This document shows, piece after piece, positions 5,156 to 20,885 of a stretch of DNA of 64,000 nt (position 1 is the stretch's first letter; each line of letters starts with the position of its first letter). Where the stretch lies: the NCBI RefSeq assembly GCF_003382275.1, contig NZ_QTJX01000001.1, positions 1,550,001 to 1,614,000 on the forward strand. The letters are read 5' to 3'. The notes under the pieces are model-generated. The model made no database searches. It was not told the DNA's origin and worked only from the letters and a program-made list of their open reading frames with translations. This stretch comes from Flagellimonas nanhaiensis. GTDB lineage: Bacteria > Bacteroidota > Bacteroidia > Flavobacteriales > Flavobacteriaceae. A program made the position numbers and the translations under genes.

Positions 5156-6063
5156 AATTCTGTCATTTTAACATTTCTCTCTTTGCTAGGTTCGATATGG
5201 ATGTGCACGTCAAGTATCTCGGAATATGACCTGAACAATCTCTCCTTTACTTTGTGTGCAATATCATGGCCCTCGGTCACAGTTAATTCCCCATCGATCC
5301 AAATATGCATATCGATATGAAAGGCCGTTCCCATCTTTCGGGAATGGCAGCGCTCTACCCTTACCACTTCAGGAACGGCTTCGGCCTGTCGGATAACCTC
5401 ATTTCGAAATTCGGGCTCAACAGCTTCGTCCAGCAACTCCCTTACCGATGACCTAGCTATTTTATAGGCATTGAACAGAATAATGCCCGCTGCAATGAGT
5501 GCCGCGAAATCATCCGCTATCTCAAACCCTTCGCCACCGATCAATGCTATGGAAATACCTATAAAAGCGGCTATCGACGTAATGGCATCACTCCTATGGT
5601 GAAATGCATCGGCCTTGACGGCCGAACTATTGATTTCATCACCTGTTTTCATGACATAACGATACAACGCCTCTTTCGTGAGGACAACAAATACCAGTAT
5701 GAAGAGTGTGAAGGGTGCAGGAGTTTTGTGGGGTACCAGAATATGGTCGATGCTGTCCCTTATGATTATACCACCTGCAATGGTTAGGGCTATAGCAATA
5801 CCCACCGCCACCAGGGCCTCTATCTTACCGTGTCCGTAGGGATGGTTTTCATCCGGTGGCCTTGACGACCATTTCAACCCGGCCCATAATAGTGCGGATG
5901 TCAGCACATCCGCCCCGGATTCGATCGCATCGGCAATAAGGGCATAAGAATGCCCGAACACCCCGCCCAAACCTTTGATCAATGCCAATAATGCACTGAT
6001 CAAAATACCTACGAGGGTAGTTTTGAGTCCTATTCGGGATATGGCATTTGGATTCCTTTCCAA
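5152..6063 (-). CDS. Cation diffusion facilitator (CDF) family metal/proton antiporter
   Basis: The 303-residue protein has six hydrophobic helices and CDF metal-site motifs: LIADAIESGAD in helix 2 and VKADAFHHRSDAITS in helix 5 (H-x2-D). HPYGHGKIEALVA is the conserved cytoplasmic loop. The C-terminal cytoplasmic domain (about 210-303) has the dimerisation/metal-sensing fold ending DVHIHIEPS. CDFs export Zn2+, Fe2+, Co2+ or similar ions from the cytoplasm. No ATG is available in frame: the first start after an upstream stop is TTG at 6061-6063. It follows the HMA-CDF gene by 36 bases and overlaps the exchanger by four. Confidence 0.88.
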   Translation of the reverse strand: MERNPNAISRIGLKTTLVGILISALLALIKGLGGVFGHSYALIADAIESGADVLTSALLWAGLKWSSRPPDENHPYGHGKIEALVAVGIAIALTIAGGIIIRDSIDHILVPHKTPAPFTLFILVFVVLTKEALYRYVMKTGDEINSSAVKADAFHHRSDAITSIAAFIGISIALIGGEGFEIADDFAALIAAGIILFNAYKIARSSVRELLDEAVEPEFRNEVIRQAEAVPEVVRVERCHSRKMGTAFHIDMHIWIDGELTVTEGHDIAHKVKERLFRSYSEILDVHIHIEPSKERNVKMTEL

Positions 6064-6099
6064 AATCTTTCTTTTGCTATTTCTTTTCTTCCCAATACG

Positions 6100-6900
6100 T
6101 TATTTGGACAATTTTAAAATTCTAATGGCTCCTCGCATCACAAAGGCAAATACAATACCGCCTATGACCAAATCGGGCCATTTACTGTCTAAAAAATAAA
6201 CCAGCACCCCTGCCAGTATTACCCCGCCGTTCACAATAATGTCGTTTGAGGTAAAGATGGCACTTGCCTGCATATGCGCTTCCTTGCTTTTGGCCTTGTT
6301 TATCAGCCATAGGGAAACGAGGTTGCCGATAAGGGCGAAAATGGAAACGATTATCATCCATTGGAACAAAGGGGTTTCACTACTGCTCAAAAACCTTCTC
6401 AGGACTTCCGAAAATCCCAGCAGGGCCAAGGCCATTTGAAAATAGCCACTGAACTTCGCCACTTTCTTTTTTCTGGAAATAGCGCCGCCTACGGCAAAAA
6501 GGCTCAACGCGTACACAATGGAATCGGCTAGCATATCTAGTGAATCCGCAATAAGGCCCATCGAGGAAGAAATCCAACCCGTGGTCATTTCGATAACGAA
6601 AAACCCAAAATTGATGTACAAGACCCACCAGAGTATCTTCTTTTGTTTGGTCTCGTCTTCGGCAATAGGTGTTTCCGCCTTTTCTGTTCCCAAAAGTTTT
6701 TCCCCCAGCTTTAATGCACCCAATTCCACGTTTATTTCTTGGGCATTCCCCTGATGGTACACATCCAACTTTCTATTCGGAATGTCAAAGTCCAGATATT
6801 TGATTTGAGGGTTTGACTCCAGTTTCATCCTTATCATCTGTTCTTCTGAAGGGCAATCCATTTGACTTACCTTAAAAGTGGTTTTGTTTATGGTGGACAT
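6100..6900 (-). CDS. Cation transporter: HMA-like domain fused to a CDF membrane domain
   Basis: Residues 1-65 resemble a heavy-metal-associated (HMA) ferredoxin-like domain, but the usual CxxC is reduced to a single cysteine (MDCPSEE). Residues 90-266 hold six hydrophobic helices with the CDF helix-2 pattern IADSLDMLADSI; the helix-5 equivalent is ASAIFTSNDIIVNGG. The usual C-terminal cytoplasmic CDF domain is absent, so the N-terminal domain may replace it. Likely an inner-membrane metal exporter. It heads the transporter set HMA-CDF, CDF, exchanger. The missing second cysteine suggests that, if the domain binds metal, it uses other ligands. Confidence 0.78.
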   Translation of the reverse strand: MSTINKTTFKVSQMDCPSEEQMIRMKLESNPQIKYLDFDIPNRKLDVYHQGNAQEINVELGALKLGEKLLGTEKAETPIAEDETKQKKILWWVLYINFGFFVIEMTTGWISSSMGLIADSLDMLADSIVYALSLFAVGGAISRKKKVAKFSGYFQMALALLGFSEVLRRFLSSSETPLFQWMIIVSIFALIGNLVSLWLINKAKSKEAHMQASAIFTSNDIIVNGGVILAGVLVYFLDSKWPDLVIGGIVFAFVMRGAIRILKLSK

Positions 6901-7190: not shown

Positions 7191-7325
7191 TTATATATGC
7201 AATGCCCTATCTTCGGTAGCGGCCAGAAAGGCTTCCTTAAAGGTTTCTGAAAATGTGGGATGCCAATGGGGCATCCGTGCGATATCCTCTGCCGCTGCCC
7301 TGAATTCCATTATCGCCAAAACACA
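7191..7325 (-). pseudogene. C-terminal relic of a dihydrolipoamide dehydrogenase/mercuric reductase-type flavoprotein
   Basis: One minus-strand frame reads [20 protein letters not shown], then [20 protein letters not shown] and LHI before TAA at 7191-7193. This matches the end of the pyridine nucleotide-disulfide oxidoreductase dimerisation domain (LAMEFGASAEDIA...CHAHPTLSEA). The active-site histidine context HPT is retained, but there is a substitution (MPHWHPT for CHAHPT) and the remaining roughly 400 residues are missing. The fragment sits between the Fur gene and the 70-residue gene, so it looks like a deletion scar in the island. Confidence 0.75.
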
Positions 7326-7443
7326 AACCAATAATTGTTATATCATATTTTTCTATAGTTGTATTTTTTTGGTTAAATAAGGTGGAAGAACCTTGAACTT
7401 GACTCTTGGGCGCAAGGGTTCAAAGTTCTGGAACTCCCACCTG

Positions 7444-7878
7444 TTATTTTTTCTTACATTTCACGCATATTCCTTTTAATACCAGGTTGACATCGTTTAT
7501 TTTATAATCAGCTGGTAAACTTTCTTCCGGTATTTTATTTGGCAAACAGATTGTTTTCTTACATTCGGTACAATGAAAGTGCAGATGTAAATCTGAACCG
7601 TATTCACCTTTTGCATTTTCACCGGAAATCGCAAATTTTGCCACTCCGGTTCCATCATTTATCTGATGAATAAGTCCTTTATCCTCAAAAATCTTAAGGT
7701 TGCGATAAAAGGTCGTTCTGTTTGCTGTCTTATTGGTTTCGCTCTTTTCAGCAAAGACCTTTTTCAAGTCGGAAAAGGACACGGCACTTTGCTTCCTTCT
7801 CAGATACCTGTATATCTTGGACCTCATTTGAGTAGGGCGAATACCGTAATTCGACAATATTTTTTCCGTTTTGTTCAT
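7444..7878 (-). CDS. Fur-family metal-dependent transcriptional repressor (copy 1)
   Basis: The 144-residue protein has an N-terminal winged helix (about 1-85: GIRPTQMRSKIYRYL...TTFYRNLKIFEDKGLIHQI) and a C-terminal dimerisation/metal domain with DLHLHFHCTECKKTICLP and a terminal CVKCKKK. The two CxxC pairs form the structural zinc site; the HLHFH cluster is the regulatory metal region. The ATG at 7876-7878 is chosen; a longer frame to 8010 would overlap the ATPase gene and adds sequence foreign to Fur proteins. It follows the P1B-4 ATPase by 38 bases and probably represses this operon in response to Zn2+ or Fe2+. Confidence 0.88.
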   Translation of the reverse strand: MNKTEKILSNYGIRPTQMRSKIYRYLRRKQSAVSFSDLKKVFAEKSETNKTANRTTFYRNLKIFEDKGLIHQINDGTGVAKFAISGENAKGEYGSDLHLHFHCTECKKTICLPNKIPEESLPADYKINDVNLVLKGICVKCKKK

Positions 7879-7916
7879 TTTTAACCTTGATTCAAAGGCA
7901 ATCTCCTTTATTGAAT

Positions 7917-9905
7917 TTATTTTTTGTAGGCGAGCAAACGCAATGCATTGACCACCACTACCAACGTAGAGCCCTCGTGAATGGCCACGGCTATCCCTAT
8001 ACTTGCCCAACTCATAATTGTCGCAGGAATTAAAAGGGCAACAACCCCCAAGCTAACCCATAAGTTTTGCTTGATTATCGCCTTCGCTTTTCTGCTTAAA
8101 CCGATGGCAAAAGGCAAGGTTTCCAGTTTGTCTGCCATTAGTGCTATATCTGCGGTTTCTAAAGCCACGTCGCTTCCCGCCGCACCCATTGCAATACCAA
8201 CGGTACTGTTTGCCATAGCAGGGGCATCATTGACCCCATCACCTATCATTGCCAGTTTATTTTCCTGTTCCGCAAGTTTTTTGATGGCCTCCACTTTTTC
8301 TTCGGGAAGCAGACTTCCGCGAGCTTCGGTCAACCCAATTTCCTCGGCTACGGCATCTGCCACTTTCTGGTTGTCGCCCGTAAGCATTATCATTTTCTTG
8401 ATGCCTATTTCCTTTAGTTGGGCAAGGGTTTCCTTGGCTTTTTCCCGTGGGGTGTCCATCAGCCCCAGCATCCCTATAAATTCATTGCCCCTTTTTATTA
8501 GCATCGTGGTCTTTCCTTCCCCTTCAAGCGCTCTTACCTTTTCTGATACATCGTCGGGTACGCCCTTATCAATATCCTCGAAGAGTTCCAGGTTACCAAT
8601 GTAAATGGAATTCCCTTGATAGTTTGCCTTTATGCCCTTGCCCTGTACGGCCTCCAAATCATCGGCATCCGGAATCTTTGTGTCCTTCCCGAGCCGTTCC
8701 ATTCCGTCCCGTACAACTGCCTTTGCCAGGGGGTGGTCGCTCAGTTCCTCAACCGCAATCGCGATTTCCAACAGTTCCTTTTTATCTATACTGCCAAAAC
8801 TTTCGACGTCGGTAAGCTTTGGTTTTCCTTCGGTAAGCGTTCCTGTCTTGTCAAAGGCCAATGCGGTAAGCACCCCTAAATCTTCCAATGGGCGACCGCC
8901 TTTTATCAAGACCCCGCCACGCGCAGCCCTTGCCACACCACTCAATACAGCAGATGGCGTCGAAATGGCGAGCGCGCACGGACTTGCAGCTACCAATACC
9001 GCCAAGGAACGGTATAGGCTTTCGCTCCACGGTTCATCGATGACCAAAAAAGCAAAATTCAGTGCAACGACCAGTATAATGACCGCTGGCACATAGTACC
9101 GCTCAAACTTGTCGGTCAACAACTGGGTGGGCGATTTCTGGTCTTGAGCCTCCTGAACCATAGTGACCAAGCGGTTGAGGGTAGAATCTTTTGCCTCTTT
9201 GATTACCTTTATTTCAAGGGTATTGTTGCCATTGATGGTTCCTGAAAATACACGGTTCTCATTGGGAATATTGCTTTTTGAGGTATACTCTTTGTCCGGA
9301 TTTTCTATTGGTGTTTTGTCCACCGGAACGCTTTCCCCGGTAATGGGTGCCTGGTCAACACTACTGTTACCTTTTACAATTACACCATCGGCGGATATCT
9401 TGCTGTTGGGGCGCACCACGATGATGTCGCCCACCTGTAGTTCTTCAATACCCACTTCAACGGTATCGTCATCTTTCTTGAGAAGGGCTGTTTTTGGGGC
9501 GAGGTCGGTCAGTGCCGCAATGGACTTTTTTGCCTTGCCCATTGCATAGTTTTCCAATGCGTGACCCAGACTAAAAAGGAAAAGCAACAAGGCACCTTCT
9601 GCCCATTCGCCCAGATAGGCCGCCCCCGCAGCCGCGACCAGCATCAGGAAATCGATTTCAAATTCGCCCTTGGCCACTTTGCTAATAGCTTCCTTCAGGG
9701 TAAAATAACCTCCAAAAAAGTAGGCCGCAATATAGAGTCCAAAAGGAATGTTTTCTGAAACCCCTGTAAATTTCTCCAATAGGAAACCTGTTATTAGTGT
9801 GACCCCACTTAATATAGCAAAATAGAGTTCGGTGTTTTTGCCGAAGATGCCACCGTGGTCGTGATTGTGGCCATCGTCATTACTATGTTTTTCCTTGTCA
9901 TTCAT
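7917..9905 (-). CDS. P1B-4-type heavy-metal-translocating P-type ATPase
   Basis: The 662-residue pump has the SPC motif at 308-310 (AASPCALAISTPS), the phosphorylated aspartate D352 in DKTGTLTEG, the TGES motif (189-192), the hinge MLTGDN and GDGVNDAP. The last helix carries HEGST at about 643. SPC plus HEG(G/S)T defines the P1B-4 group (CoaT, CtpD, PfeT), which exports Co2+, Fe2+ or Zn2+. No HMA domain is present; instead the N-terminus is short and His-rich (DGHNHDHGG). Located in the inner membrane. The Fur gene directly downstream fits regulation by Fe/Zn-type metals rather than copper. Confidence 0.92.
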   Translation of the reverse strand: MNDKEKHSNDDGHNHDHGGIFGKNTELYFAILSGVTLITGFLLEKFTGVSENIPFGLYIAAYFFGGYFTLKEAISKVAKGEFEIDFLMLVAAAGAAYLGEWAEGALLLFLFSLGHALENYAMGKAKKSIAALTDLAPKTALLKKDDDTVEVGIEELQVGDIIVVRPNSKISADGVIVKGNSSVDQAPITGESVPVDKTPIENPDKEYTSKSNIPNENRVFSGTINGNNTLEIKVIKEAKDSTLNRLVTMVQEAQDQKSPTQLLTDKFERYYVPAVIILVVALNFAFLVIDEPWSESLYRSLAVLVAASPCALAISTPSAVLSGVARAARGGVLIKGGRPLEDLGVLTALAFDKTGTLTEGKPKLTDVESFGSIDKKELLEIAIAVEELSDHPLAKAVVRDGMERLGKDTKIPDADDLEAVQGKGIKANYQGNSIYIGNLELFEDIDKGVPDDVSEKVRALEGEGKTTMLIKRGNEFIGMLGLMDTPREKAKETLAQLKEIGIKKMIMLTGDNQKVADAVAEEIGLTEARGSLLPEEKVEAIKKLAEQENKLAMIGDGVNDAPAMANSTVGIAMGAAGSDVALETADIALMADKLETLPFAIGLSRKAKAIIKQNLWVSLGVVALLIPATIMSWASIGIAVAIHEGSTLVVVVNALRLLAYKK

Positions 9906-9931
9906 ATTATTAATCGTTTTGTTATCGTTAA

Positions 9932-10288
9932 TTAAGATTTAATCCACTTTTGGGCTTGTGATTTCTCGGAAATATCGAAATACTTAACTTCCGAGCTAGT
10001 GAAAAAATCAGTTGCCTTAGCCACCCACTCCTGCCATTTTTTGTTACCCACAAAGGCTATCTTGCCGTAATCTCCCAAGTGTGCCGAATCAATTTTTAGG
10101 TCTTCCCAAAAGCCTTTAAGGGTATAGCCTTCAAAATCTTCCATTTCAATATAGAAATCCACTTTATGGCCTTTTTCTATGATGTTGTGGATGAGCGGAT
10201 GCATCTTTTCCATATCCTTTTCCGTAAGTTTCCCGCTGATTTTAGCGGCAATAAGATGTTCCTGTTCTAAGTTTATTATCTGTACCAT
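9932..10288 (-). CDS. SpoIIAA-like (STAS-fold) protein, copy 1
   Basis: The 118-residue product begins MVQIINLEQEHLIAAKISGK and contains DFEGYTLKGFWEDLK, GDYGKIAFVGNKKWQEW and a VKYFDISEKSQAQKWI end. This is the SpoIIAA-like (DUF3478) family, a STAS-type fold of unknown function that often occurs near stress or transport genes. It is soluble with no signal peptide. A longer frame would start at TTG (10307-10309); the ATG at 10286-10288 is preferred. It lies 26 bases upstream of the ATPase gene. A diverged paralogue is at 11438-11809. Confidence 0.82.
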   Translation of the reverse strand: MVQIINLEQEHLIAAKISGKLTEKDMEKMHPLIHNIIEKGHKVDFYIEMEDFEGYTLKGFWEDLKIDSAHLGDYGKIAFVGNKKWQEWVAKATDFFTSSEVKYFDISEKSQAQKWIKS

Positions 10289-10378
10289 TTTTGTATATTT
10301 TTTAATCAATCTAATTAAAACAAACGTGCAACGGAAGTGCCAATAACCCTTCCTGCATGGCCCAATAACCTCCTGTTT

Positions 10379-11149
10379 CTAGTTGCACTGTGCCTTTTCC
10401 TTACCTATATACACCAGGGCTTCGGGCAAATCTAGTTCGCGCGTGGCATTGCCCGTGCGTATATAAAACCGTGACCGTCCCTCAAGGTTCACATATACCG
10501 GCATTTGGGCTGGTAAAATCTCGATACAGCACACTTGCTTTTGACCAAACCCAAAAAATGCTACGTTCACTAGCGTACAAAGATGGGTTCCCAGTTTTTG
10601 AGCGATCAATTGCATCAAATACTGCTCAAAGCCATCGCTGTCCGGCTTTTTAAGCGTATCGAAATCCTGTTGCAGGCCCAGAATGGTTCCCCCGTCATCG
10701 ACACCCATGAGCAACTTGCCCCCCTCGGTGTTCATAAACCCGGCAATGGTCTTTGCAATGATAAGCTCAAGTTGTTTGTTTACCTTGCCCTGCCGTACAT
10801 CCCATCGCAAGCTTGACTTGAATTCCACCCGGCTGCTCTCTCCCTTGTTTATGAGTTCGAGAACGGTTTGCCTGTCCATCCGTTGCCTGTTCAGTTGAAA
10901 AATCTTTTTTCTGAAAAAGACCATCAGGGCAAGGCTGCTTCCCATTGTCCCGAACAACAGGTTTCTAAGAATTTGGTCAACATCGACAACGTTCCATACG
11001 GTTTTGAAGGCTTCAAGAAAAAAGCTTGACCAGTGACCGGAATCGCCCGACCGGTCAAAGAGAAAAAGGGATAGGCCCAAGGGTTGCAGTATAAATACCC
11101 CAAAGGCAAAGCCTGCCAAAAGCCATATCCCTATTTTTCTTCTTTGCAT
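10379..11149 (-). CDS. Membrane-anchored AlbA_2 (Schlafen-type) domain protein
   Basis: Two hydrophobic helices occupy the N-terminus (about 7-32 and 62-82). The cytoplasmic part (about 95-250) is an AlbA_2 domain: GESSRVEFKSSLRWD, then IAGFMNTEGGKLLMGVDDGG and ILGL, ending RFYIRTGNATREL. AlbA_2 domains bind nucleic acid or nucleotides and usually occur in soluble HTH regulators; a membrane-anchored form with no HTH is less common. The gene is embedded in the metal operon, 42 bases after the SHOCT gene. A sensing role at the membrane is possible but speculative. Confidence 0.75.
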   Translation of the reverse strand: MQRRKIGIWLLAGFAFGVFILQPLGLSLFLFDRSGDSGHWSSFFLEAFKTVWNVVDVDQILRNLLFGTMGSSLALMVFFRKKIFQLNRQRMDRQTVLELINKGESSRVEFKSSLRWDVRQGKVNKQLELIIAKTIAGFMNTEGGKLLMGVDDGGTILGLQQDFDTLKKPDSDGFEQYLMQLIAQKLGTHLCTLVNVAFFGFGQKQVCCIEILPAQMPVYVNLEGRSRFYIRTGNATRELDLPEALVYIGKEKAQCN

Positions 11150-11191
11150 AGATAACGGTGTTATGGTCGTTCGGTCAAAAGCAAAACACTG

Positions 11192-11410
11192 TTATTTTTT
11201 GTTCTTTAACAGGAACGTCTTTCGTTTTTCAAATTCCTCTTCGTCGATTTCGCCCCGGGCGTACCGCTCTCTCAGGGCTTCCATTGCGGTGTCCCTTTTT
11301 CTTTTCTGTCCCGGTGTGGGGTAGGGAATTAAAAATATCCAGAAGATGAGGATTATCCATAACCCCCACCATATCCAGTGCATTCCCCCAAAATACCAAT
11401 CGTCCATCAT
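11192..11410 (-). CDS. Small SHOCT-domain membrane protein
   Basis: The 72-residue protein starts MMDDWYFGGMHWIWWGLWII with one tryptophan-rich membrane helix (about 10-32) and ends in a SHOCT motif, AMEALRERYARGEIDEEEFE followed by KRKTFLL. SHOCT is a short oligomerisation motif found at protein termini. The W/H/M-rich start is typical of small membrane proteins in copper- and metal-related clusters of Bacteroidota. It is flanked by the AlbA_2 and SpoIIAA-like genes on the same strand. Confidence 0.82.
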   Translation of the reverse strand: MMDDWYFGGMHWIWWGLWIILIFWIFLIPYPTPGQKRKRDTAMEALRERYARGEIDEEEFEKRKTFLLKNKK

Positions 11411-11437
11411 AATTTTCTAGATTTAAAGATTCATGTT

Positions 11438-11809
11438 TCAGTTACTATTGAAATTGCTTGTTTGTTCGAGCCAGTTGTTGGCCATGTTTCCATCTTCAGG
11501 TCCGAAATATTTTATGTGGGCTTCGCTAAACGGCAATAGCGATTCGGTAAACCGTTCTTGCCAAGTTTTTTCGCCCACCAAGGCTATTTTCTTAAGCCGT
11601 GTTTCTTCGGGAAAGGAAAAATCCAACCTCTCACCGCTGCTTTTCTTCACTCCTTTTTTGCGAGGCTCCATTTCCATATACCAAGCGGCTTGTTCATTGC
11701 TTTTCAAATGTTCATTCAGGGCCTTGACCAAGGTCGCCCCATCATCGGCATCCATTTCTTGATCTGCGATGGTATATATGATTTGGTCTTTTTTATAGAT
11801 TGCTATCAT
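11438..11809 (-). CDS. SpoIIAA-like (STAS-fold) protein, copy 2
   Basis: The 123-residue protein shares the family pattern of copy 1 at 9932-10288: KKIALVGEKTWQERFTESLL matches its GKIAFVGNKKWQEW region, and AHIKYFGPEDGNMANNWLEQ matches the VKYFDISEKSQAQKWI end. The middle is lengthened by a lysine-rich insert (RKKGVKKSSGERLDF). It is soluble. Two different SpoIIAA-like proteins in one metal operon suggest hetero-oligomers or separate partners, which is inference. It lies 34 bases after the second Fur gene. Confidence 0.72.
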   Translation of the reverse strand: MIAIYKKDQIIYTIADQEMDADDGATLVKALNEHLKSNEQAAWYMEMEPRKKGVKKSSGERLDFSFPEETRLKKIALVGEKTWQERFTESLLPFSEAHIKYFGPEDGNMANNWLEQTSNFNSN

Positions 11810-11843
11810 CGTCGTATTCTTTTGATGTTATTGGCCTTTAAGG

Positions 11844-12266
11844 CTACTCCAAATTGCCACTGCATTTATTGCATACTCCCGTTACGACCAGATTGATATC
11901 GTCTGCCATATATCCTTGAGGCAGGTTTACCTGTGGGATTTTACGATCGGTCAAACAAACGGTCTCGTTACACTGGGTGCAGTGAAAATGTAGGTGCAGG
12001 TCGCTGCCCACCTCACATCCACAGTTTTCCTCACAGAGTGCATATTTCATAATCCCTGTACCGTCCGCTATCTGATGTACAATATTTTTTTCCTCAAATG
12101 TTTTCATCGTCCGGAAAAGGGTGCTCCTTTCCGATTTCTCGAAAAAATTCTCTAGCTCTCCCAAACTGATGGCTACCTCGCTTTGCAGTAACTTTTTATA
12201 GGTCAACAGTCGCATCGGTGTGGGCCGTATTCCCTTGCTTTCCAGTTTTTTGACAATTCTTTCCAT
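11844..12266 (-). CDS. Fur-family metal-dependent transcriptional repressor (copy 2)
   Basis: The 140-residue protein has the Fur winged helix (SKGIRPTPMRLLTYKKLL...STLFRTMKTFEEKNIVHQI) and a metal domain with DLHLHFHCTQCNETVCL and a final VCNKCSGN. It also carries an additional ENCGCE segment near residue 80 that copy 1 lacks, giving extra potential thiol ligands. It is clearly a diverged paralogue of the Fur at 7444-7878. It lies 11 bases after the PII-like gene, so it is cotranscribed with it and probably controls the RND pump half of the island. Confidence 0.88.
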   Translation of the reverse strand: MERIVKKLESKGIRPTPMRLLTYKKLLQSEVAISLGELENFFEKSERSTLFRTMKTFEEKNIVHQIADGTGIMKYALCEENCGCEVGSDLHLHFHCTQCNETVCLTDRKIPQVNLPQGYMADDINLVVTGVCNKCSGNLE

Positions 12267-12277
12267 TTTAAAAGGGG

Positions 12278-12616
12278 TTAAAGATCGTAGCGTTTAAGGG
12301 ATTTTCCTGTTTTGATCTGAAAGGCATCCTCAATATAGGATAGATAAATGATTCCATCCCCAGGTTCGGGCGTTTTACCATTTTCTAATATGATATCTAT
12401 GGCTGATTGCGCCTCCTCATTTTGACATACCAACTCCACTTTTACCACCGGGCTATCGGTTATATTAAAATCAAGGGAGGGTCTTGCTCCTTTTGCTTTG
12501 AACGCCCCGGTACCCTCCGCCTGTGAAAGCGTCATACTTTTAAAACCGTTATCGCTAAGGGCTTCGATGACCCTTTGTATCCTGTTCGGTTTAACAAATG
12601 CTTTTATTTCTTTCAT
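12278..12616 (-). CDS. PII-like signalling protein linked to the RND efflux pump
   Basis: The 112-residue product from the ATG at 12614-12616 has the PII order: MKEIKAFVKPNRIQRVIEAL, then FKSMTLSQAEGTGAFKAKG, and the C-terminal GDGIIYLSYIEDAFQIKTGK that corresponds to the PII GDGKIFV...IRTGE signature. The T-loop is short (ARPSLDFNITDSP) and has no tyrosine at the usual uridylylation site, so classical GlnB nitrogen control is unlikely. PII-like proteins beside CusA-type pumps are known as a recurring arrangement; metal or nucleotide sensing is inferred. No glnD, amtB or glnA is nearby. Confidence 0.78.
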   Translation of the reverse strand: MKEIKAFVKPNRIQRVIEALSDNGFKSMTLSQAEGTGAFKAKGARPSLDFNITDSPVVKVELVCQNEEAQSAIDIILENGKTPEPGDGIIYLSYIEDAFQIKTGKSLKRYDL

Positions 12617-12731
12617 TTTTAAAATGTTTAAATTTTTAATCGATTTTGAACCGGGCATGTTTTCTAATTTTTAACTAACTAATTAAGATGATAAACAAAC
12701 CCGGAATCAAAATCCTTGATTTTTTAGAGAA

Positions 12732-13991
12732 TTAATGTCCGTGCTCCAATTCGCCTTTCACCATTTCTGAAGAAAGGGTATAGGCCCCATTGATAACCAC
12801 TTTTGAACCATATTGAAGGGGTTCCATGGGATTTATGGAAACAAAGCCCAAATCGATAACCCCTACCGATACCTGCACCATTTTAAATTTGAGCTTGCCT
12901 TCTTCCTGGGCATCGCCATCGTCAAGTACAAAAATGAACGACTTTTCACCCTCTTTGATGACCGCTTCCTCGGGTACTGCCAGAGTGTTTTTTTCATCCT
13001 GTACAATCCTGCCCTCTACATACATACCAGGCAATAAATCCCTTTCGGGATTTTCTATATGGGCGTGGATATGCACGGCCTTGGGATCTTCCTCGAAGGT
13101 CTTGCCTATGGAATGTACCTCAGCGGTAAGCAGCTCGTCTGGTCTCGAGGCAACACTGAAAAAAATCTTTTGCCCTTCTTTGACCCTCGGGATGTCCTTT
13201 TCATATACCTTTAGATCCACGTGTATCTTAGAATTGTCGCTTACGGCAAACATCTTGGATTGTGGTGCCACATAATCGCCAAGGCTTATCAACACCTCAT
13301 CGACAAAACCGCTAATGGGACTTATAACGGGTACACCCTGATATATTTTACCATTGGCGATTTCGTCAACATTAAAGCCCAATAGCCGTAGTTTTGCCCG
13401 CATTGCATTGACCGAAGAGGTCGTGGAACGATATTTGGATTGTGCCATCTGAAATTCCTTGCCGGATGAGACCCCTTTGTCATAGAGGGTTTTTTTTCGT
13501 TCGTAGTCCTGATCCAAAAAGACCAGTTCGTCATTTTTCTCCTGAAATTCCTGTTGCATCGTTATGATATCGGGGTGTTCCAAATAGGCGAGAACCTGTC
13601 CCTTGCGCACCTTATCACCCTCTATAACAAGTACCGAGCTTATATTGCCGCCCACAAAGGGGCTTATATTGGCCCTGTCCTGTGGGAAAAGTTCGAGTCT
13701 GCCCGTTACCTTGATGTTGTTGCCCAGGCTACGTTCTTCCAAAGGTTTCATTTCGAGGCCGATGGTTTCCGCCTGCTGTTGGGTAATTTCAACGGAACCT
13801 TCTTCTTCCTCATGGCCGCCCTCTTCTGCATGGGCCTCATTACCATGCCCTTCTTCCCCTTCCTGTAACGTCTCTTTAGTGGTCGCTTTGCCCTCATCAT
13901 GGCCTAATTCTCCCTTTTGCCTACCGTTGCAGGAAACAAGGAACGCTGTCAAGGCCAGGATTGATGTCAATGTAATTGCTATATTTTTCAT
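12732..13991 (-). CDS. RND efflux periplasmic adaptor, CusB/CzcB type
   Basis: The 419-residue protein starts MKNIAITLTSILALTAFLVS with a lipobox cysteine directly after. It continues with a His/Glu-rich linker (HGNEAHAEEGGHEEEEG), which may bind metal, and then the adaptor folds: barrel-sandwich (GNISSVLVIEGDKVRKGQVL), a helical hairpin and the membrane-proximal domain (DLLPGMYVEGRIV...LAVPEEAVIKEGEKSFIFVL). It bridges the inner-membrane pump to the outer-membrane channel in the periplasm. The ATG at 13989-13991 is preferred because it gives the lipoprotein signal. It follows the fused pump gene by 16 bases. Confidence 0.9.
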   Translation of the reverse strand: MKNIAITLTSILALTAFLVSCNGRQKGELGHDEGKATTKETLQEGEEGHGNEAHAEEGGHEEEEGSVEITQQQAETIGLEMKPLEERSLGNNIKVTGRLELFPQDRANISPFVGGNISSVLVIEGDKVRKGQVLAYLEHPDIITMQQEFQEKNDELVFLDQDYERKKTLYDKGVSSGKEFQMAQSKYRSTTSSVNAMRAKLRLLGFNVDEIANGKIYQGVPVISPISGFVDEVLISLGDYVAPQSKMFAVSDNSKIHVDLKVYEKDIPRVKEGQKIFFSVASRPDELLTAEVHSIGKTFEEDPKAVHIHAHIENPERDLLPGMYVEGRIVQDEKNTLAVPEEAVIKEGEKSFIFVLDDGDAQEEGKLKFKMVQVSVGVIDLGFVSINPMEPLQYGSKVVINGAYTLSSEMVKGELEHGH

Positions 13992-14007
13992 TTCTTTTTC
14001 TTTTAAA

Positions 14008-17000
14008 TTATAGGTTGCCCAGTTGATATTGAATTTCAATGGCCTGCTGGTTATACTGATTTATAAATTGTAAGTGGTTCTGTTTTATGCGTATGGCACT
14101 ATTAAGGATAGTGATATAGTTTACATAGTCTATCTCGCCTTCCCGGGATGCCAGTTCTGCCGTGGCAATTTGTTCATCGGCCAACCGCAGTGCCCCTTTT
14201 TCGTAATACTCAAGACTTTTTTGGGTTTTTTCCAGAGCCTTAACCAATTGGGCCAACGTGCTTTCGGTCATCGCCTTCTGTTCAAGGTATTGGCTCTCGG
14301 CCAAAATCGCATCGGCCTTTGCCGCTTTCACCCTGTTCTTTTGCGGTAAGAACCACAGGGGAATACTTATTCCCACTTGATAGGTGTTAAAGCCTGAAAC
14401 GTCGTCAACTGTTTGCCTTCCATAGGTTAGGTTGAACTTGGGCAGGAACTGTGATCTCTCTACCTCTACATTGGCTTCGCTTACGGCCACATTCTGTTCG
14501 GCAAACTGTAACAAAGGGTTCTTATTTATATTCTCCGAGGGTGAATCCAGAAACCTTTCCGCCCAAGCGGTAAAAGGTTCGTCAGCTATGTCGATGGGGT
14601 CATTAATGCCCAGATATTGCTTCAGCTGCCTTTTGGCAATCTCGATATCATCGTAGGCCTGTTGCCTGAGTACCTGTATCTGCTGGTATTCCGAAGAGGC
14701 CGCAATGTATTCCAATTTTCCCGTCTCACCGGTATCGTACCGCAGCTTTGCGGCCGATTCAAAGTCTGTATAGACGCTGTCAAGGCGCTCGGCAAAGCGC
14801 AGCTGGGCGGTATTGTACTGTATCTGGTTGTAGGCCAGCATCACATTGCGTACCAATTGCTGTTCGCTGAGCTCATACAGTTTTTCTCCCAAGGCTACCC
14901 TTTCCTTGAAAAACTTGGATTTGGAAAAGCCCGACAGTAGATCGATATTTCCCTGTTGAACACCAATCACGGTCTGAACGCCGGGCACACCGCTGCCCGT
15001 TTCTTCCTTACCGGTAAATACTTGGGTGTTCCCCAAATCGAAGCTTGTGCCCCTTAAGGCCTTCTCCCGTGCAATGAAGGCCTCGCCCTGTTTTAAGGTT
15101 GGGTAATACTCCCTGGCTTTGTCAACGGCCTGTTGCAGGGTAAGGGTCTGGACAGGATCAGGTTCTTGGGCAACCACCGTACCCGATGACAAAAAACCAC
15201 TTACGGCAAGTAGAATCCCGAGCATAGGCAGACTGTTCTTTACATATCCGGTATCTCCGTTGTCGGATTGTTTGCGCTGCTTTCTGCTCTCGAGCCAGTT
15301 GTAGAGGACGGGCACCACCACAAGTGTCAACAAGGTGGCCGTAATCAAACCGCCAATTACCACAGTGGCCAACGGTCTTTGTACTTCAGCACCCCCCGAC
15401 GTGGAGACCGCCATTGGCACAAAACCCATAATGGCTGCCGTAGCCGTAAGCAATATTGGCCTCAATCTCTCGTGGGTGGCCTCTTCGATGCGTTTTTTGA
15501 TATTTGTCATTCCTTCTTCTTTTAAATCGTTGAATTTGTTGATGAGCACTAGTCCATTGAGGACGGCCACGCCAAAGAGTACGATGAATCCCACTCCGGC
15601 CGAGATACTGAAGGGCATACCACGTAACCAAAGGGCAAAGACCCCACCAATAGCTGCCAACGGTACTGCCATATATATCATCACCGATTGTGAAAATGAT
15701 TTCAAGGCAAAGTACAGTAGGATAAAAATCAATACCAGGGCAATGGGTACCACCACCATAAGACGGTCTGTTGCACGCTGTAAATTCTCAAATGAACCAC
15801 CATAGGTAATATAGTACCCAGGAGGCAGTTCCAGTTGTTCATCAAGTTTTGCCTGTATTTCCTCGACCATTGACTTAACGTCCCTGCCCCTAACGTTTAC
15901 ACCAACATAAATCCTTCTATAGGTATTATCACGCGATATCTGCATCGGCCCCGGTTTATAACTAATATCCGCAACCTCTTTTAATGGAACTTGGTTGCCA
16001 TTGGGTAAATCGATGTACAGGTTTTTAAGATTGTCAATGTTCTTACGATAGGCTTCCGCCAATCGTATTACCACTTCAAACCGTTTTTCCCCTTCAAAGA
16101 TGACACTGGCCGCTTCACCGGCAAAGGCCGCGCTCACGTAATCATTGAGCTTTTCAATTGTAACTCCGTACTGTGCCATTTTCGCACGATTATAGACAAC
16201 GGTCATTTGAGGCAAACCGCTAGTGGCCTCTGCCCTTACATCACCGGCACCCGGCACGGTCTGAATTATGGATGCCATTTCGTTGGCTTTTTCAGCCAGA
16301 ATGTCCAAATCTTCTCCATAGAGTTTTATGGCTACATCTTCCCTTACTCCGGTTAGCAACTCGTTGAACCGCAGCTCGACCGGTTGGGTGAACACGAAGT
16401 TCACCCCCGGGATGACCGATATTTTCTCCTTTATCTTTTCTATCAATTCTTCTTTACTATCGGCACTCGTCCATTTACTTTTATCCTTTTCTAGGATAAC
16501 ATAGCTATCGGCGATATCCATTGGCATCGGATCCGTAGGGATTTCGGCAACTCCAATCCTTGAAATCATTGTCTTGACCTCTGGAAATTCATTTACCAGG
16601 TTTTGTAGTTTTTTGGAAGCTTCAATGGATTCCGTTAGGCTGCTTCCAGGTTTTATAAGGGCCTGCATCGCTATATCGCCCTCATCGAGTTTAGGAATAA
16701 ACTCACCCCCCATACCACTGAATATAAATACCGCAATGGCAAATAGGGCGACGGCGCCCAACACTACACCAGCCTTGAACCGTAGAGCAAAATTCAACAG
16801 CGGTTGATACCCCTTGTGCAAGGTTGCCATAATTTTATCGCTGAAACCTTCAATCTTATGTTCAAACTTGGCGAACCAGTGGTCTGGGTTTTTGGCGGGA
16901 CGTAGGAACAGGGCGGAAATCATCGGCACGTAGGTGAGGCACAATATAATTGCCCCCAAAACGGCAAAACCGAAGGTGAAGGCCATTGGACGGAACATTT

Positions 17001-18417
17001 TGCCTTCTATTCCAGTAAGGAAGAGGATAGGGGTAAAAACAATCAGGATAATCAATTGACCGAAAAAGGCCGAGTTCATCATTGTACTGCCCGATTCATA
17101 GGCCAGTTCGTCCATCTCTACTTGCGTAAATACGGCCTTGGATTTTTTCAGCCGCATCTGTATATGGTGCACCATACCTTCCACAATGATGACGGCCCCG
17201 TCTACAATGATACCGAAGTCGATGGCACCAAGGCTCATCAGATTTGCCCAAACGCCGAACTGCCTCATCAATATGAATGCAAACAACAATGAAAGCGGGA
17301 TGACCGATGCCGTAATAAGGCCCCCACGAAAACTACCCAATAGCAGGACAAGTACAAAAATCACGATCAACGCGCCTTCCACGAGGTTCTTCTTTACGGT
17401 ACTGGTAGTTCGCGCTATAAGTTCACTTCGTGAAAGAAAAGGTTCTATAGTAACGCCTTCGGGAAGTGATTTTTGTATTTCAGCGATTCGCCCTTCCACA
17501 TTTTCGATGACATTGCTCGGGCTCTCGCCCTTGAGCATCAAAATCTGCCCGCCCACGCTTTCGTGCCCGTCCTGTGTAAAGGCGCCATAGCGCACCTGGT
17601 TGCCATAGCCTACTTTTTCTGCAACATCGCTTACCAGTATGGGGGTCCCGTTTTGAGTCGTGACCACGGTATTTTTTAGGTCTTCAAGACTTCTTGCGAG
17701 TCCTTCGCCCCGAATAAAATTGGCTTGATGATTTTTTTCAATATAGGCACCTCCGGTATTTGCATTATTTTTTTGAAGTGCCTCGAATACCTGGCCCATC
17801 GTGATGCCAAAGCTCTTTAGCTTATCGGGATTTAGGGCAACTTCATACTGTTTGACATACCCACCAAACGCGTTTACTTCCACTACGCCGGGCACTAGGG
17901 CCATTTGCCTTTTTACCAGCCAGTCCTGAATGGTACGAAGCTCCATAGCATCGTATTTGTCTTCGTAGCCCTCCTCGACTTTTAAGGTATATTGAAAGAT
18001 TTCTCCCAAACCTGTAGTTATGGGTGCCATAAATGGTGTACCAAAACCTTCGGGAATTTCTTCAGCAACTTCAGCTAATTTCTCCTGCACCAATTGCCGG
18101 GGCAGATAGGTACCTGCTTCATCCTTAAAGACAATGGTAACAACTGACAATCCAAAACGGGATACCGAACGCAGCTCGATAACGTCAGGAAGGTTTGCCA
18201 TTGCCAATTCTACGGGATAGGTCACGAATTGCTCAATATCTTCAGTACCTAAATTTGGGGCAACGGTAATAACCTGTACTTGGTTGTTGGTAATATCAGG
18301 TACAGAACCCAGATTTATAGTGGCCATAGACCATATTCCGGTGCCTATTAGGGCAACCATAAACAAACCGATTATAAATTTGTTGTTTATGGAAAATGAA
18401 ATGATTTTGTTAATCAT
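14008..18417 (-). CDS. CusA/CzcA-type heavy-metal RND pump fused to a TolC-like outer-membrane component
   Basis: The 1469-residue protein has a full heavy-metal RND transporter in about residues 1-1040 (opening IISFSINNKFIIGLFMVALI; GAIDFGIIVDGAVIIVEG in helix 4; the porter and docking domains; ending LTLVVVPVLYNWLE). A further hydrophobic segment (SLPMLGILLAVSGFLSSG) followed by VVAQEPDP resembles an internal signal peptide. The remaining roughly 400 residues are an outer-membrane efflux protein with two coiled-coil repeats (LTLQQAVDKAREYYPTLKQG...). Two genes of the usual three-gene pump are thus one reading frame. Such fusions occur in Bacteroidota. Substrate (Cu, Zn, Co, Cd) is not decided by sequence. 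Confidence 0.93.
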   Translation of the reverse strand: MINKIISFSINNKFIIGLFMVALIGTGIWSMATINLGSVPDITNNQVQVITVAPNLGTEDIEQFVTYPVELAMANLPDVIELRSVSRFGLSVVTIVFKDEAGTYLPRQLVQEKLAEVAEEIPEGFGTPFMAPITTGLGEIFQYTLKVEEGYEDKYDAMELRTIQDWLVKRQMALVPGVVEVNAFGGYVKQYEVALNPDKLKSFGITMGQVFEALQKNNANTGGAYIEKNHQANFIRGEGLARSLEDLKNTVVTTQNGTPILVSDVAEKVGYGNQVRYGAFTQDGHESVGGQILMLKGESPSNVIENVEGRIAEIQKSLPEGVTIEPFLSRSELIARTTSTVKKNLVEGALIVIFVLVLLLGSFRGGLITASVIPLSLLFAFILMRQFGVWANLMSLGAIDFGIIVDGAVIIVEGMVHHIQMRLKKSKAVFTQVEMDELAYESGSTMMNSAFFGQLIILIVFTPILFLTGIEGKMFRPMAFTFGFAVLGAIILCLTYVPMISALFLRPAKNPDHWFAKFEHKIEGFSDKIMATLHKGYQPLLNFALRFKAGVVLGAVALFAIAVFIFSGMGGEFIPKLDEGDIAMQALIKPGSSLTESIEASKKLQNLVNEFPEVKTMISRIGVAEIPTDPMPMDIADSYVILEKDKSKWTSADSKEELIEKIKEKISVIPGVNFVFTQPVELRFNELLTGVREDVAIKLYGEDLDILAEKANEMASIIQTVPGAGDVRAEATSGLPQMTVVYNRAKMAQYGVTIEKLNDYVSAAFAGEAASVIFEGEKRFEVVIRLAEAYRKNIDNLKNLYIDLPNGNQVPLKEVADISYKPGPMQISRDNTYRRIYVGVNVRGRDVKSMVEEIQAKLDEQLELPPGYYITYGGSFENLQRATDRLMVVVPIALVLIFILLYFALKSFSQSVMIYMAVPLAAIGGVFALWLRGMPFSISAGVGFIVLFGVAVLNGLVLINKFNDLKEEGMTNIKKRIEEATHERLRPILLTATAAIMGFVPMAVSTSGGAEVQRPLATVVIGGLITATLLTLVVVPVLYNWLESRKQRKQSDNGDTGYVKNSLPMLGILLAVSGFLSSGTVVAQEPDPVQTLTLQQAVDKAREYYPTLKQGEAFIAREKALRGTSFDLGNTQVFTGKEETGSGVPGVQTVIGVQQGNIDLLSGFSKSKFFKERVALGEKLYELSEQQLVRNVMLAYNQIQYNTAQLRFAERLDSVYTDFESAAKLRYDTGETGKLEYIAASSEYQQIQVLRQQAYDDIEIAKRQLKQYLGINDPIDIADEPFTAWAERFLDSPSENINKNPLLQFAEQNVAVSEANVEVERSQFLPKFNLTYGRQTVDDVSGFNTYQVGISIPLWFLPQKNRVKAAKADAILAESQYLEQKAMTESTLAQLVKALEKTQKSLEYYEKGALRLADEQIATAELASREGEIDYVNYITILNSAIRIKQNHLQFINQYNQQAIEIQYQLGNL

Positions 18418-18449
18418 AGAAAAAGTATTAATTCAGTTTAAACATCGCA

Positions 18450-18467
18450 ATGCAATGAGATGCAATG
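18450..18467. repeat. Two direct copies of ATGCAATG upstream of the RND pump
   Basis: ATGCAATG occurs at 18450-18457 and again at 18460-18467, so the copies are ten bases apart, about one helical turn. They lie 33-50 bases upstream of the pump start. The spacing suits binding of a dimeric regulator or two adjacent monomers. The function is inferred; an unrelated hairpin follows at 18478-18502. Confidence 0.35.
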
Positions 18468-18477
18468 CATTTAGAAT

Positions 18478-18502
18478 GTGATGCTTACGTTGAAAGCATC
18501 AC
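18478..18502. promoter_or_regulatory. Inverted repeat between the DUF6660 gene and the RND pump
   Basis: GTGATGCTT (18478-18486) and AAGCATCAC (18494-18502) form a perfect nine-base inverted repeat around a seven-base spacer. A second small dyad, GGATAG-AG-CTATCC, lies at 18507-18520. Neither is followed by a T-run in the direction of transcription, so neither is a normal terminator. An operator or leader hairpin controlling the pump operon is the more likely reading. Confidence 0.45.
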
Positions 18503-18534
18503 GATAGGATAGAGCTATCCTTAAAAAAACTGAA

Positions 18535-18843
18535 TTATACTTGAGGGGGTTGGTAAAGGGAAAGGGCAAAATCTTTGCCAAGGCTATCAAAATGGGCAAA
18601 GTTTTCTTGAGAAATCACGGATTGAAGCGGTTGAAATTCGGCTATATCAAAATCAATTGTATGCACGTGGCAACAATGGCACTGGCAGAATGGTGAACAC
18701 AGCTCACAATCTTGGTCGTGATTGCCATCATAGTCCATTACCGAAACGACCTGGGCGTCATCTTTAGCTTTGCCCGAATCGCCACAGGGCACTACATTGA
18801 GCGCCAAAAAGTAAAAGGACAATATGATTGTTAAAAATTTCAC
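18535..18843 (-). CDS. DUF6660-type Cys/His-rich exported protein
   Basis: The 102-residue protein starts at GTG (18841-18843) with a signal-like N-terminus (KFLTIILSFYFLALNVVPCG). A short acidic linker leads to a dense cysteine/histidine cluster, CELCSPFCQCHCCHVH, then a conserved FDIAEFQPL tail. I recognise this as the DUF6660 type found just upstream of CusA-type pumps in Bacteroidota. It is likely a periplasmic or membrane-linked metal-binding protein feeding or sensing for the pump; that role is inferred from the metal-ligand cluster and position. It is the first gene of the efflux operon. Confidence 0.78.
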   Translation of the reverse strand: MKFLTIILSFYFLALNVVPCGDSGKAKDDAQVVSVMDYDGNHDQDCELCSPFCQCHCCHVHTIDFDIAEFQPLQSVISQENFAHFDSLGKDFALSLYQPPQV

Positions 18844-19019
18844 GGTACAAAAATATAAAAAAATCGATGCAACGCCTATGCAAAAACTGGAAAGACTGAA
18901 GAATTGGTAGTCTACGCTTTTGCGTCAAAACTTAAGAAATAACCTTTTTACCAATTCCAACTACCATACGGATTCATCATTTTTCAATTCAGGATAAAGG
19001 GTATTGAGCAATGGTCTTC

Positions 19020-19673: not shown

Positions 19674-20885
19674 TTAAAAGTTTACTACCTTTTCTAAGGC
19701 ATCATCGGTTTCTTTGTGCATGAAATTCGATTGATAGTTAACCGTTGTTGTAATCGAAGAATGACGATACAGTTTTTGAAGCATTTGAATAGGTATTTTA
19801 TCGCCAGAAATGTTTCCAAAGCTATGACGGGCTATATGCATAGATAGTTTTTTCTCAATACCCAGTTTTTCTCCAACGATTTGCAATCGCCGGTTTAAAT
19901 TTCGGGTTACGGTTTTAACCCTAGTTGCTACTCTTTTGTCATCTTTCAAATTGGTGCCTTTTAAAAAAGGAAAAACCAAATCATCCTTCCCCCTCTTTTG
20001 AGCCTCAAAATACTTAAGAATTTCTTTGGTCTTATCGGGAACGACCAATGAGACAAGTTTCCTGTTCTTCCCCATACGATAATATAAGCGATTATCTTTA
20101 AAGTCGGACCATTTTAGTTTTATGACATCAGCAACCCGAACACCCGCAAAGTAAAAGCTCGTTAGCCATACGTACACCGCATGAAGCTGTGCTTTTGTCA
20201 AATTGTCTGCGGTTTCAAGTAATTGAACCTCTTCCTTGTTCAATCCGATTTTTTCGCTTTCAGGAAACTTAATCTGTATTTTACCTTTTCCAAATGGGTA
20301 GTTCCTATCATCAACATGATATTCCTTTCGGGCAAAATTATAAATGGTGCGGATAAGCATTAAATAGTTTATCGCCGTTCTTGGAGCGACTTTTCGTTCA
20401 TAAAGAAGATATGCCTCGAACCTTTTCAATAAGGTGACGTCCAAATCGGTAAAGGAAAGCTCTTTTCGCCCTAAATAAGTTTTAAAAATCTCCAACCTCT
20501 TTTCTTGATTGTATTGTTGATTGAACTTTTTTCTTTTTAGGAGATTCGCCAAAAAAACCTCACTTACTTTGAAAAAATCATATTTATCCTCTCCCACAAT
20601 CTTTTTAGTGATTGTAGCTACAGATTGCTTTTTTTCGCTTGATTCAATTTCCAAAGCCATGTCATGCGCTTCAGTAATCTTTTTCAAAAGCATGTTATTA
20701 AGGCGTGAAGAATTAGGATGACTTTTTTTAGCCAACCCCTTTGTTTGGTCCCAATCCTTTTCAAGAATGTACTCACCTGTAAAAAGGAACTTGGACTTTC
20801 TATCTTTTGTTATTCGTAGGGCAATTGGGAAAGTCCCGTCCTTCTTCTGATAATTCTTGCGTAATACTATCTTTACAGTCGCCAT
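19674..20885 (-). CDS. Tyrosine recombinase (site-specific integrase)
   Basis: The 403-residue protein has an N-terminal arm-binding domain (ATVKIVLRKNYQKKDGTFPI), a SAM-like core-binding domain (about 105-200) and a C-terminal catalytic domain. Catalytic residues are visible: arginine in FAGVRVADVIKLKW, the HIARHSF box (H-x2-R), the histidine in YRHSSITTTVNY and the final tyrosine nucleophile there. This is the Bacteroidota integrative-element type. It starts 165 bases left of the tRNA fragment at 21050, so the element it serves extends to the left. Tandem repeats at 20920-20941 sit in its promoter region. Confidence 0.92.
   Translation of the reverse strand: MATVKIVLRKNYQKKDGTFPIALRITKDRKSKFLFTGEYILEKDWDQTKGLAKKSHPNSSRLNNMLLKKITEAHDMALEIESSEKKQSVATITKKIVGEDKYDFFKVSEVFLANLLKRKKFNQQYNQEKRLEIFKTYLGRKELSFTDLDVTLLKRFEAYLLYERKVAPRTAINYLMLIRTIYNFARKEYHVDDRNYPFGKGKIQIKFPESEKIGLNKEEVQLLETADNLTKAQLHAVYVWLTSFYFAGVRVADVIKLKWSDFKDNRLYYRMGKNRKLVSLVVPDKTKEILKYFEAQKRGKDDLVFPFLKGTNLKDDKRVATRVKTVTRNLNRRLQIVGEKLGIEKKLSMHIARHSFGNISGDKIPIQMLQKLYRHSSITTTVNYQSNFMHKETDDALEKVVNF

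Follow-up and report, generated by a model that had tools for sequence, protein, structure and literature searches.

Proposed two-level control of a mobile metal-efflux operon in Flagellimonas nanhaiensis by a Fur-family regulator and a DUF6660 leader peptide with a predicted stop-codon helix

Directly upstream of the heavy-metal pump gene czcA of Flagellimonas nanhaiensis lies a small open reading frame (ORF) of the Pfam family DUF6660, the stop codon of which falls within a predicted RNA helix that reaches almost to the start of the pump gene. We came upon it in contig NZ_QTJX01000001.1, forward-strand positions 1,550,001 to 1,614,000, the 64,000 nucleotides we refer to as the window; a hunt for an operator upstream of the pump revealed a conserved, structured gap instead. 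The genes here are the cargo of a mobile metal-resistance island, and its efflux operon is, in our judgement, probably controlled at two levels: transcription by the Fur-family protein FurA, and translation by the DUF6660 leader and its helix. The original prediction had concerned the run of small regulatory genes behind the pump. It ended at position 18843, which is the start codon of DUF6660, and left DUF6660 unmentioned.

At the first level, FurA would bind TGCA-N7-TGCA near the promoter; the association of gene and motif is seen, with a phylogenetic confounder, and the binding and its metal logic we infer. At the second level, DUF6660, the first ORF, would be made as an exported Cys/His-rich nascent chain. 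Metal bound outside the cell would make synthesis pause near the end of the leader, at QPP, with only a few codons left to the stop. A ribosome paused with PP, the stop codon 2-4 codons ahead of it, would sit over arm 1 of the helix and free arm 2, which would otherwise cover the region where czcA is initiated; translation of czcA and the downstream genes would then follow. Without metal, the ribosome would terminate, the helix would close and czcA would be off. The products would act as a pump (CzcAB) and as inner-membrane exporters (the P1B ATPase and the cation-diffusion-facilitator, or CDF, proteins). Motifs, spacing and predicted helix are observed; pausing, its sign and the metal we infer by analogy with the copper leader CutF. 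The target is an efflux pump, and so the sign of CutF would be expected, opposite to that of CruR.

Beyond the window we lean, if only slightly, toward a wider claim: that in Bacteroidota many heavy-metal resistance-nodulation-division (RND) pumps are governed by arrest peptides that sense metal and can be exchanged, some of the Cys-rich DUF6660 type and some His-rich, all sharing a W/F/L-Q-P-P pause and a stop-codon helix. The metal-binding part varies while pause, spacing and helix stay, and the leader would therefore set the metal that each pump answers. The features on which the argument turns are these:

18868..18882, minus strand: putative FurA operator TGCATAGGCGTTGCA, TGCA-N7-TGCA, immediately upstream of the leader
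18848..18855, minus strand: TATTTTTG, resembling by sequence the Bacteroidota -7 promoter box, the consensus of which we take to be TAnnTTTG
18535..18843, minus strand: DUF6660 leader ORF, 102 aa, hydrophobic N terminus, DCELCSPFCQCHCCHVH, C-terminal YQPPQV-stop (PF20365, E 5.9e-50)
18544..18552, minus strand: QPP codons, proposed ribosome-pausing site (from [WFLY]QPP conservation among leaders)
18423..18542, minus strand: predicted RNA element of arm 1, arm 2 and three inner hairpins
18527-18542, minus strand: RNA arm 1, containing the leader stop codon
18423-18439, minus strand: RNA arm 2, ending 6 nt before the CzcA start
14008..18417, minus strand: CzcA/CusA RND pump fused to a TolC-like outer-membrane (OEP) domain, 1469 aa (PF00873 and PF02321; TIGR00914)

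The proposed leader and its tail

The leader is Cys/His-rich and ends QPPQV-stop, and czcA follows 117 nt downstream on the same strand. Its N terminus is hydrophobic by eye, and the protein is apparently exported. At an E-value of 0.001 a DUF2946 match was not found; the sole Pfam match is PF20365, a family carried by 54 of 296 genomes from the phylum and by 0 of 14 controls. At the best 30 DUF6660 loci, with genes named by eye, the C terminus reads PP plus two to four residues without exception (30/30) and a CzcA-type RND gene comes next in 29. The thirtieth is L215, where the gene after the DUF6660 leader, which has FQPP, is TonB-dependent-receptor-like and not a pump; L117 is alike. Counted from the pumps, a small ORF in which no more than six residues follow a terminal PP was seen at 44 of 47 loci, near copies being numerous among them. 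At L132-L134, PP is missing from the last six residues and there is an SPP further in.

A second type of leader, His-rich and with no Pfam match, turned up at 11 places in 10 of 395 genomes. Ten of these have the PP tail and a CzcA-type RND gene downstream; the eleventh (L251) is a spurious weak match. We had regarded the two types as wholly unrelated families, a view we softened because their C-terminal halves match weakly in a one-to-one search (E 0.017). Among 52 non-redundant leaders, [WFLY]Q stands before PP in 48 and two to four residues stand after it in all 52. The Cys motif is present in 44, and in 42 of these the Q of QPP lies 40-44 positions past the last Cys; the corresponding figure is 41-43 in seven of the other eight. 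Diverged leaders (L033 or L047 compared with L036 or L044) retain QPP and its spacing, and their RNA elements are 0.87-0.94 identical.

The association also emerges from sampling that was blind to leaders. A pump search of 267 genomes gave a ranked list of best matches, cut at a set length, down which 80 upstream regions were taken by hand, near-identical copies being skipped. Orientation could be assigned for 78 of them (the others were L295 and L330, although the gene of L295 recurs as L226 with a WQPP leader). Within the last 14 residues of a small ORF, PP is found for 45 of the 78 oriented pumps, against 16 of 400 other genes. For the strict form of the leader, the counts are 39 of 78 and 2 of 400 (Fisher 6e-33), and the two strict background cases themselves resemble such leaders. 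By analogy, DUF6660 looks like an exported metal-sensing leader of the CutF/CruR kind.

Pumps of the f38 family (L253, L254, L255, L257, L258, L260 and L263) have exported small ORFs upstream that end TVVLLN, TRLLI or alike. None has a QPP end, some have IPP or SPP further in, and another arrest motif is possible there.

The predicted helix at the stop codon

In the window, a 16-nt arm around the leader stop codon is predicted to pair with the arm that ends 6 nt before the CzcA start. The minimum free energy (MFE) of the element is -40.5 kcal/mol, as against -16.8 +/- 3.1 for shuffles (z -7.64). Between clades the arm sequences differ yet remain complementary. To count such helices we required at least 8 pairs, inclusion of the stop codon and reach to the pump start, a definition fixed before the held-out loci were scored. 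The discovery set came from intergenic sets dereplicated from 74 to 39 at 0.85 similarity and cut to 33 by excluding gaps above 180 nt; the predicted helix is found in 29 of these 33 loci versus 23 of 157 other same-strand gene pairs. The held-out set, with gaps of 25-200 nt, held 35 loci (27 pass), and 32 once loci sharing a 20-mer with the discovery set were removed; 24 of the 32 have the helix. The arms, moreover, suit their own partners: 53 of 65 own pairs form it versus 188 of 1210 with swapped 5' arms, or 238 of 1300 if similar arms are counted as well. Two-sided changes number 16 cells in a set of 11 sequences of Flavobacterium type, with 12 falling in the two inner hairpins; shuffles that ignore relatedness give 6.1.

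A good deal also counts against leader and helix as we read them. The signal peptide of DUF6660 is assigned solely by eye, and the CutF proline motif by itself gave no stall in the fusions described in PMC9973294. By the filter used, 33 of the 78 oriented pump genes have no PP-tailed leader; by eye, 11 of these follow a histidine-kinase-like ORF, four an adaptor-like ORF and seven an exported ORF with another C terminus, and 11 are unassigned (L299 was scored leaderless despite a DUF6660 match ~400 nt upstream). Tested one by one, the loci of the discovery set outdo their own shuffles (p <=0.05) in just 15 of 33 cases. The helix definition fails at 4 of these 33 and at 8 of the 32 held-out loci. 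AT-rich gene ends pair often: a looser measure finds pairing in 28 of 60 controls compared with 32 of 33 targets, and the control gene starts are possibly mis-called. Among six loci with gaps above 180 nt, three are unpaired in the MFE structure, one has 5 pairs and two have 10-14. Many loci are related, so the p-values overstate independence. Within the clade of the window the outer helix does not vary at all, and a covariation test there was thus uninformative.

FurA, its putative operator and the mobile cluster

The gene run of the original prediction is a real, conserved, ordered and mobile cluster. All the named genes are present and co-directional on the minus strand, with Pfam domains for the small genes above curated cut-offs, and the second Fur predicted beyond the ATPase is there as well. 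Seven small proteins had been announced between pump and ATPase but six named; the genes stand, the count does not. From CzcB through FurB the gaps are 11-73 bp. Read along the minus strand, the order is integrase, helix-turn-helix protein, an ORF of unknown function, DUF6660, CzcA, CzcB, PII, FurA, SpoA, SHOCT, AlbA_2, SpoB, P1B ATPase, FurB, another such ORF, two CDF transporters, a Na/Ca exchanger, Usp, a di-haem oxidoreductase and a Rieske protein, where the minus-strand cluster ends.

19674..20885, minus strand: tyrosine integrase of the mobile island (PF00589 and PF17293), 99.95-100% common to other genomes
12732..13991, minus strand: CzcB-type periplasmic adaptor (PF16576; TIGR01730)
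12278..12658, minus strand: PII-like protein (PF00543 P-II; PII structures in the PDB)
11844..12266, minus strand: FurA, Fur-family regulator with C78, C82, C84, H91, H93, C104 and two CxxC (PF01475; alignment)
11438..11809, minus strand: SpoA, SpoIIAA-like (PF11964; 2ook/2q3l)
11192..11410, minus strand: SHOCT protein with hydrophobic N terminus (PF09851)
10379..11149, minus strand: AlbA_2 (Schlafen-core), predicted membrane-anchored, with E104, E109 and D151/D152 (PF04326 SLFN_AlbA_2; alignment)
9932..10291, minus strand: SpoB, second SpoIIAA-like protein (PF11964; ORF to 10309, Met start 10291)
7917..9905, minus strand: P1B-type (P1B-4-like) heavy-metal ATPase (PF00122, PF00702; TIGR01525), with SPC and HEGST, which we take to be P1B-4 marks
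7444..7878, minus strand: FurB, second Fur, without C78, C82 and C84 (PF01475; ORF to 8010, Met start 7878)
5152..6900, minus strand: two CDF proteins, which extend the metal cluster (PF01545)

We scanned with the AlbA_2 protein and found 21 relatives, many of them near copies and partly redundant. All 21 hold the order CzcA-CzcB-PII-FurA-SpoA-AlbA_2-SpoB-P1B-FurB, an association that is not random; SHOCT is present in 11. In 14 of the 21 there is a further P-type ATPase, ~34% identical to that of the window. From position 1 to ~21105 the window is 99.95-100% identical to two other genomes (G017 and G018), and from 1382 to 20149 it is 100% identical to an Allomuricauda profundi contig (L032). 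The right edge, at ~21105, carries a partial copy of a tRNA-like 3' end (CATAACCC...GTTCAAGTC...CTCTCGCTAC) next to the integrase, from which we conclude that this is a mobile island. The shared length is at least 33 kb, the left end lying beyond the fetched stretch. Longer versions of the island exist: in L041, a zinc-ribbon protein, a bestrophin and MgtC (Pfam), together with a second heavy-metal ATPase, are inserted after AlbA_2/SpoIIAA, and in L112, zinc-ribbon-like and bestrophin-like ORFs are inserted (by eye).

FurA belongs to a broader core of Fur plus P-type ATPase. From a search of 296 genomes of the phylum we picked by hand 40 regions around FurA matches and, as controls, 15 around more distant Fur proteins (L157-L171). 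A P-type ATPase lies in the stretch for 30 of the 32 better-scoring FurA relatives (L112-L143, ~40% identity or more), versus none of the next 8 (L144-L151) and none of the 15 more distant, the boundary between the 32 and the 8 having been set post hoc (one of the 8, L144, shares 42% identity with FurA). FurA and FurB both have the FUR domain and two CxxC pairs, of which C96, C99, C132 and C135 are invariant in 38 of 38 aligned Fur rows, as are H91, H93 and C104. C78 and C82 are found in all 34 FurA-type rows, whereas C78, C82 and C84 are all absent from the four FurB rows; FurA and FurB may sense different metals. By ungapped counting C104 of FurA falls on the position of the usual acidic ligand, but the HMMER alignment is gapped there. 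A simple match to a canonical Fur or Zur site is absent from FurA. In L047 (15472-15909), a second Fur resembles FurB in its N-terminal half and FurA, Cys cluster included, in its C-terminal half, as if recombined.

TGCA-N7-TGCA is likely, from its sequence context, to be the FurA operator. The motif lies upstream of the leader at 24 of 29 FurA-linked loci and at none of 12 unlinked loci, 11 of which belong to a single genus (g54), so that descent could explain part of the contrast; the background is 71 of 3682 windows. That genus, and the 5 of 29 FurA-linked loci without the motif, speak against the assignment. Rows sharing an 80-nt stretch (L212, L213, L216, L224, L238 and L222 included) were removed before counting. 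The motif matches once in our 64 kb, where 1.31 matches are expected by chance; it is position, not rarity, that counts. The Nur box of Streptomyces, tTGCaa-N5-ttGCAA (PMC3919588), is similar, and at many loci our motif fits only part of that consensus. Nur is likewise of the Fur family, although it represses with nickel (PMC3919588), whereas FurA lies next to efflux genes, with Cys close to what may be its sensory site.

Other readings and known systems

DUF6660 might instead act in the periplasm once its synthesis is complete, as a metal chaperone or an accessory like CzcI, with the helix being only an element of mRNA stability or translational coupling. A Cys/His-rich, apparently exported protein encoded directly upstream of czcA would suit such a role, and CzcI sits upstream of czcCBA in Cupriavidus (PMC9973294). 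The conserved QPP and its near-fixed distance from the last Cys have no obvious purpose in a chaperone, however, the strongly diverged leaders keep both in front of an RNA element that hardly changes, and the stop codon of the leader is inside the helix; we find this reading unlikely. Very unlikely, to our minds, is that the RNA alone matters, as a metal-sensing riboswitch, a transcription attenuator or a Rho site, the peptide being incidental. The very stable fold would be explained, the outer stem of the window is followed by a short U run and CruR acts through Rho (PMC9426467), but the U run is missing in L121 and L127, and the arms are wholly different between clades, so that no common core sequence is evident. 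We rejected a known riboswitch: in 7000-20000, Rfam gave a single match, to a snoRNA, far below its gathering score and located elsewhere. Least probable of all is an ordinary Fur-controlled metal island in which the helix has no regulatory part and arises only because gene ends are AT-rich. Control by FurA at its operator might be enough, ~15% of controls pair and, singly, most loci fail to beat their shuffles; against this stand the preference of arms for their own partners and the result in the held-out loci.

The original prediction saw PII, Fur, SpoIIAA, SHOCT and AlbA_2 as one dedicated regulatory or metal-trafficking module, which we think about as unlikely as the finished-protein reading. 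The fixed order in all 21 relatives favours it, as does a second grouping elsewhere: in another cluster, all 9 regions read (L180-L187 and L192) hold an AlbA_2 paralogue, 34-37% identical by alignment, together with two SHOCT genes. The 21 loci, however, were selected with AlbA_2 and are closely related mobile copies, and SHOCT is missing from 10 of them. SpoIIAA occurs in 2 of the 32 FurA loci, which were chosen independently of it. PF11964, found in 44 of 198 genomes, lies in an evident metal cluster in 3 of 17 contexts inspected (L195, L200 and L206); two of the remaining 14 (L196 and L205) have an RND gene in the stretch. We rejected a unified SpoIIAA/SHOCT/AlbA_2 module as the core because SpoIIAA is absent from 30 of the 32 FurA loci and 14 of the 17 PF11964 contexts are not evidently metal-related. 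FurA, moreover, is part of its broader core, and the PII protein, for which both the domain and the czc neighbourhood are present here, has been described next to czcABC before (PMC7726332, citing Sant'Anna 2009). The least textbook regulator turns out to be the overlooked DUF6660 leader with its RNA helix. PII-NG resembles our PII gene in lying in a czc operon, although SpoIIAA, SHOCT and AlbA_2 are not seen in the portions of PMC7726332 covered.

The proposed role of DUF6660 as a nascent-chain sensor has precedents. Sensing of metal by an exported nascent chain is established for copper in Proteobacteria with CutF (PMC9973294) and CruR (PMC9426467). When copper binds the exported part of CutF in Rhodobacter capsulatus, synthesis is delayed by way of the proline motif at the C terminus, and the stem concealing the following start opens (PMC9973294). 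Like CutF, DUF6660 is a small, apparently exported, Cys-rich leader (<150 aa) with PP within 15 residues of its C terminus and a Cys/His motif that could bind metal, a metal gene follows directly on the same strand within 1000 nt, and a stem, here predicted, would shield the downstream initiation region. Unlike our leader, CutF is DUF2946, its target is a multicopper oxidase and its stem covers the Shine-Dalgarno site; here the family is DUF6660, QPP is near the stop, the stop codon is within the predicted helix and the target is a CzcA-OMP fusion. CruR of Bordetella pertussis shares the Cys motif and a C-terminal xxPP at a near-fixed distance: 45 residues separate CxxC from RAPP, and the spacing is needed (PMC9426467). 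CruR arrests in vitro (PMC12992588). It differs in being DUF2946 with RAPP, and in that copper relieves arrest and an importer is turned off via Rho (PMC9426467). Arrest peptides of the SecM/ApdA type, too, are leaders with C-terminal Pro-Pro pausing that opens a downstream start, but they monitor protein export (PMC10987492, PMC12992588). Copper-related RAPP/RGPP leaders are reported, in the covered part of PMC12992588, to be lacking in Bacteroidota, which is consistent with a different motif, QPP, there.

The kind is therefore known: CutF-like leaders, among them Bacteroidota members (19% or 40% of list D, by counting method) and with ACR_tran and OEP as neighbours, are already catalogued in PMC9973294. 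The name DUF6660 is absent from the main text of that paper; its supplements lie outside this statement, and DUF6660 proteins are possibly among its clusters. A text search of one collection of papers for DUF6660 or PF20365 found neither, and one that combined arrest or CutF-like leaders with RND genes and Bacteroidota brought up the papers above along with some whose titles looked unrelated. As far as this searching goes, the new points are the reading of DUF6660 as a leader of this kind, the predicted helix at the stop codon together with its controls, the likely operator of FurA, and one RNA element over which leader types are exchanged. If we are right, nascent-chain metal sensing would control many pumps of a second large phylum, with QPP, another RNA geometry and perhaps metals other than copper, and promoter-only models of metal resistance in Bacteroidota miss a layer. 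A Pfam family of unknown function would gain a testable role, a Fur clade with a defined operator would be predicted, and dozens of natural variants would be on hand for studying how metal tugs on a nascent chain.

That leaves the accessory genes. PII, the SpoIIAA-like proteins, SHOCT and AlbA_2 we regard as accessory, and we guess at a role in membrane stress. The SpoIIAA-like proteins match structures 2ook and 2q3l, for which membrane association and ligand carriage have been proposed (PMC2954212). AlbA_2 is, as a guess, a membrane-anchored Schlafen-type RNase. E104, E109, D151 and D152 are invariant in 16 of 16 aligned sequences, and its E-x4-E...D fits E205, E210 and D248 of SLFN13 (PMC5862951), a correspondence by spacing and motif. 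The best profile match to Schlafen chains has an E-value of 4.2e-6; the structure model (mean pLDDT 78.6, pTM 0.61) gives modest TM-scores of 0.3-0.4 (query length) with Schlafen and SAMD9 tRNase domains. We rejected a role in anti-phage defence for AlbA_2, SHOCT, the SpoIIAA pair and DUF6660, for which PADLOC at E 0.01 gave no matches.

At the end of the window cluster, 1110-2309 and 669-1109 encode di-haem oxidoreductase-like and Rieske proteins, and related genes also lie near the pumps in L119 and L131. In L181 and L183, among the regions with the AlbA_2 paralogue, we noted gene by gene and by eye metal-binding chaperone-like, NADH dehydrogenase-like and NhaA-like genes, and in L183 a multicopper-oxidase-like gene too. 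AlbA_2 itself is split into two overlapping frames in L049 and L050 (9001-9772) and in L194 (10161-10932), and thus can be lost.

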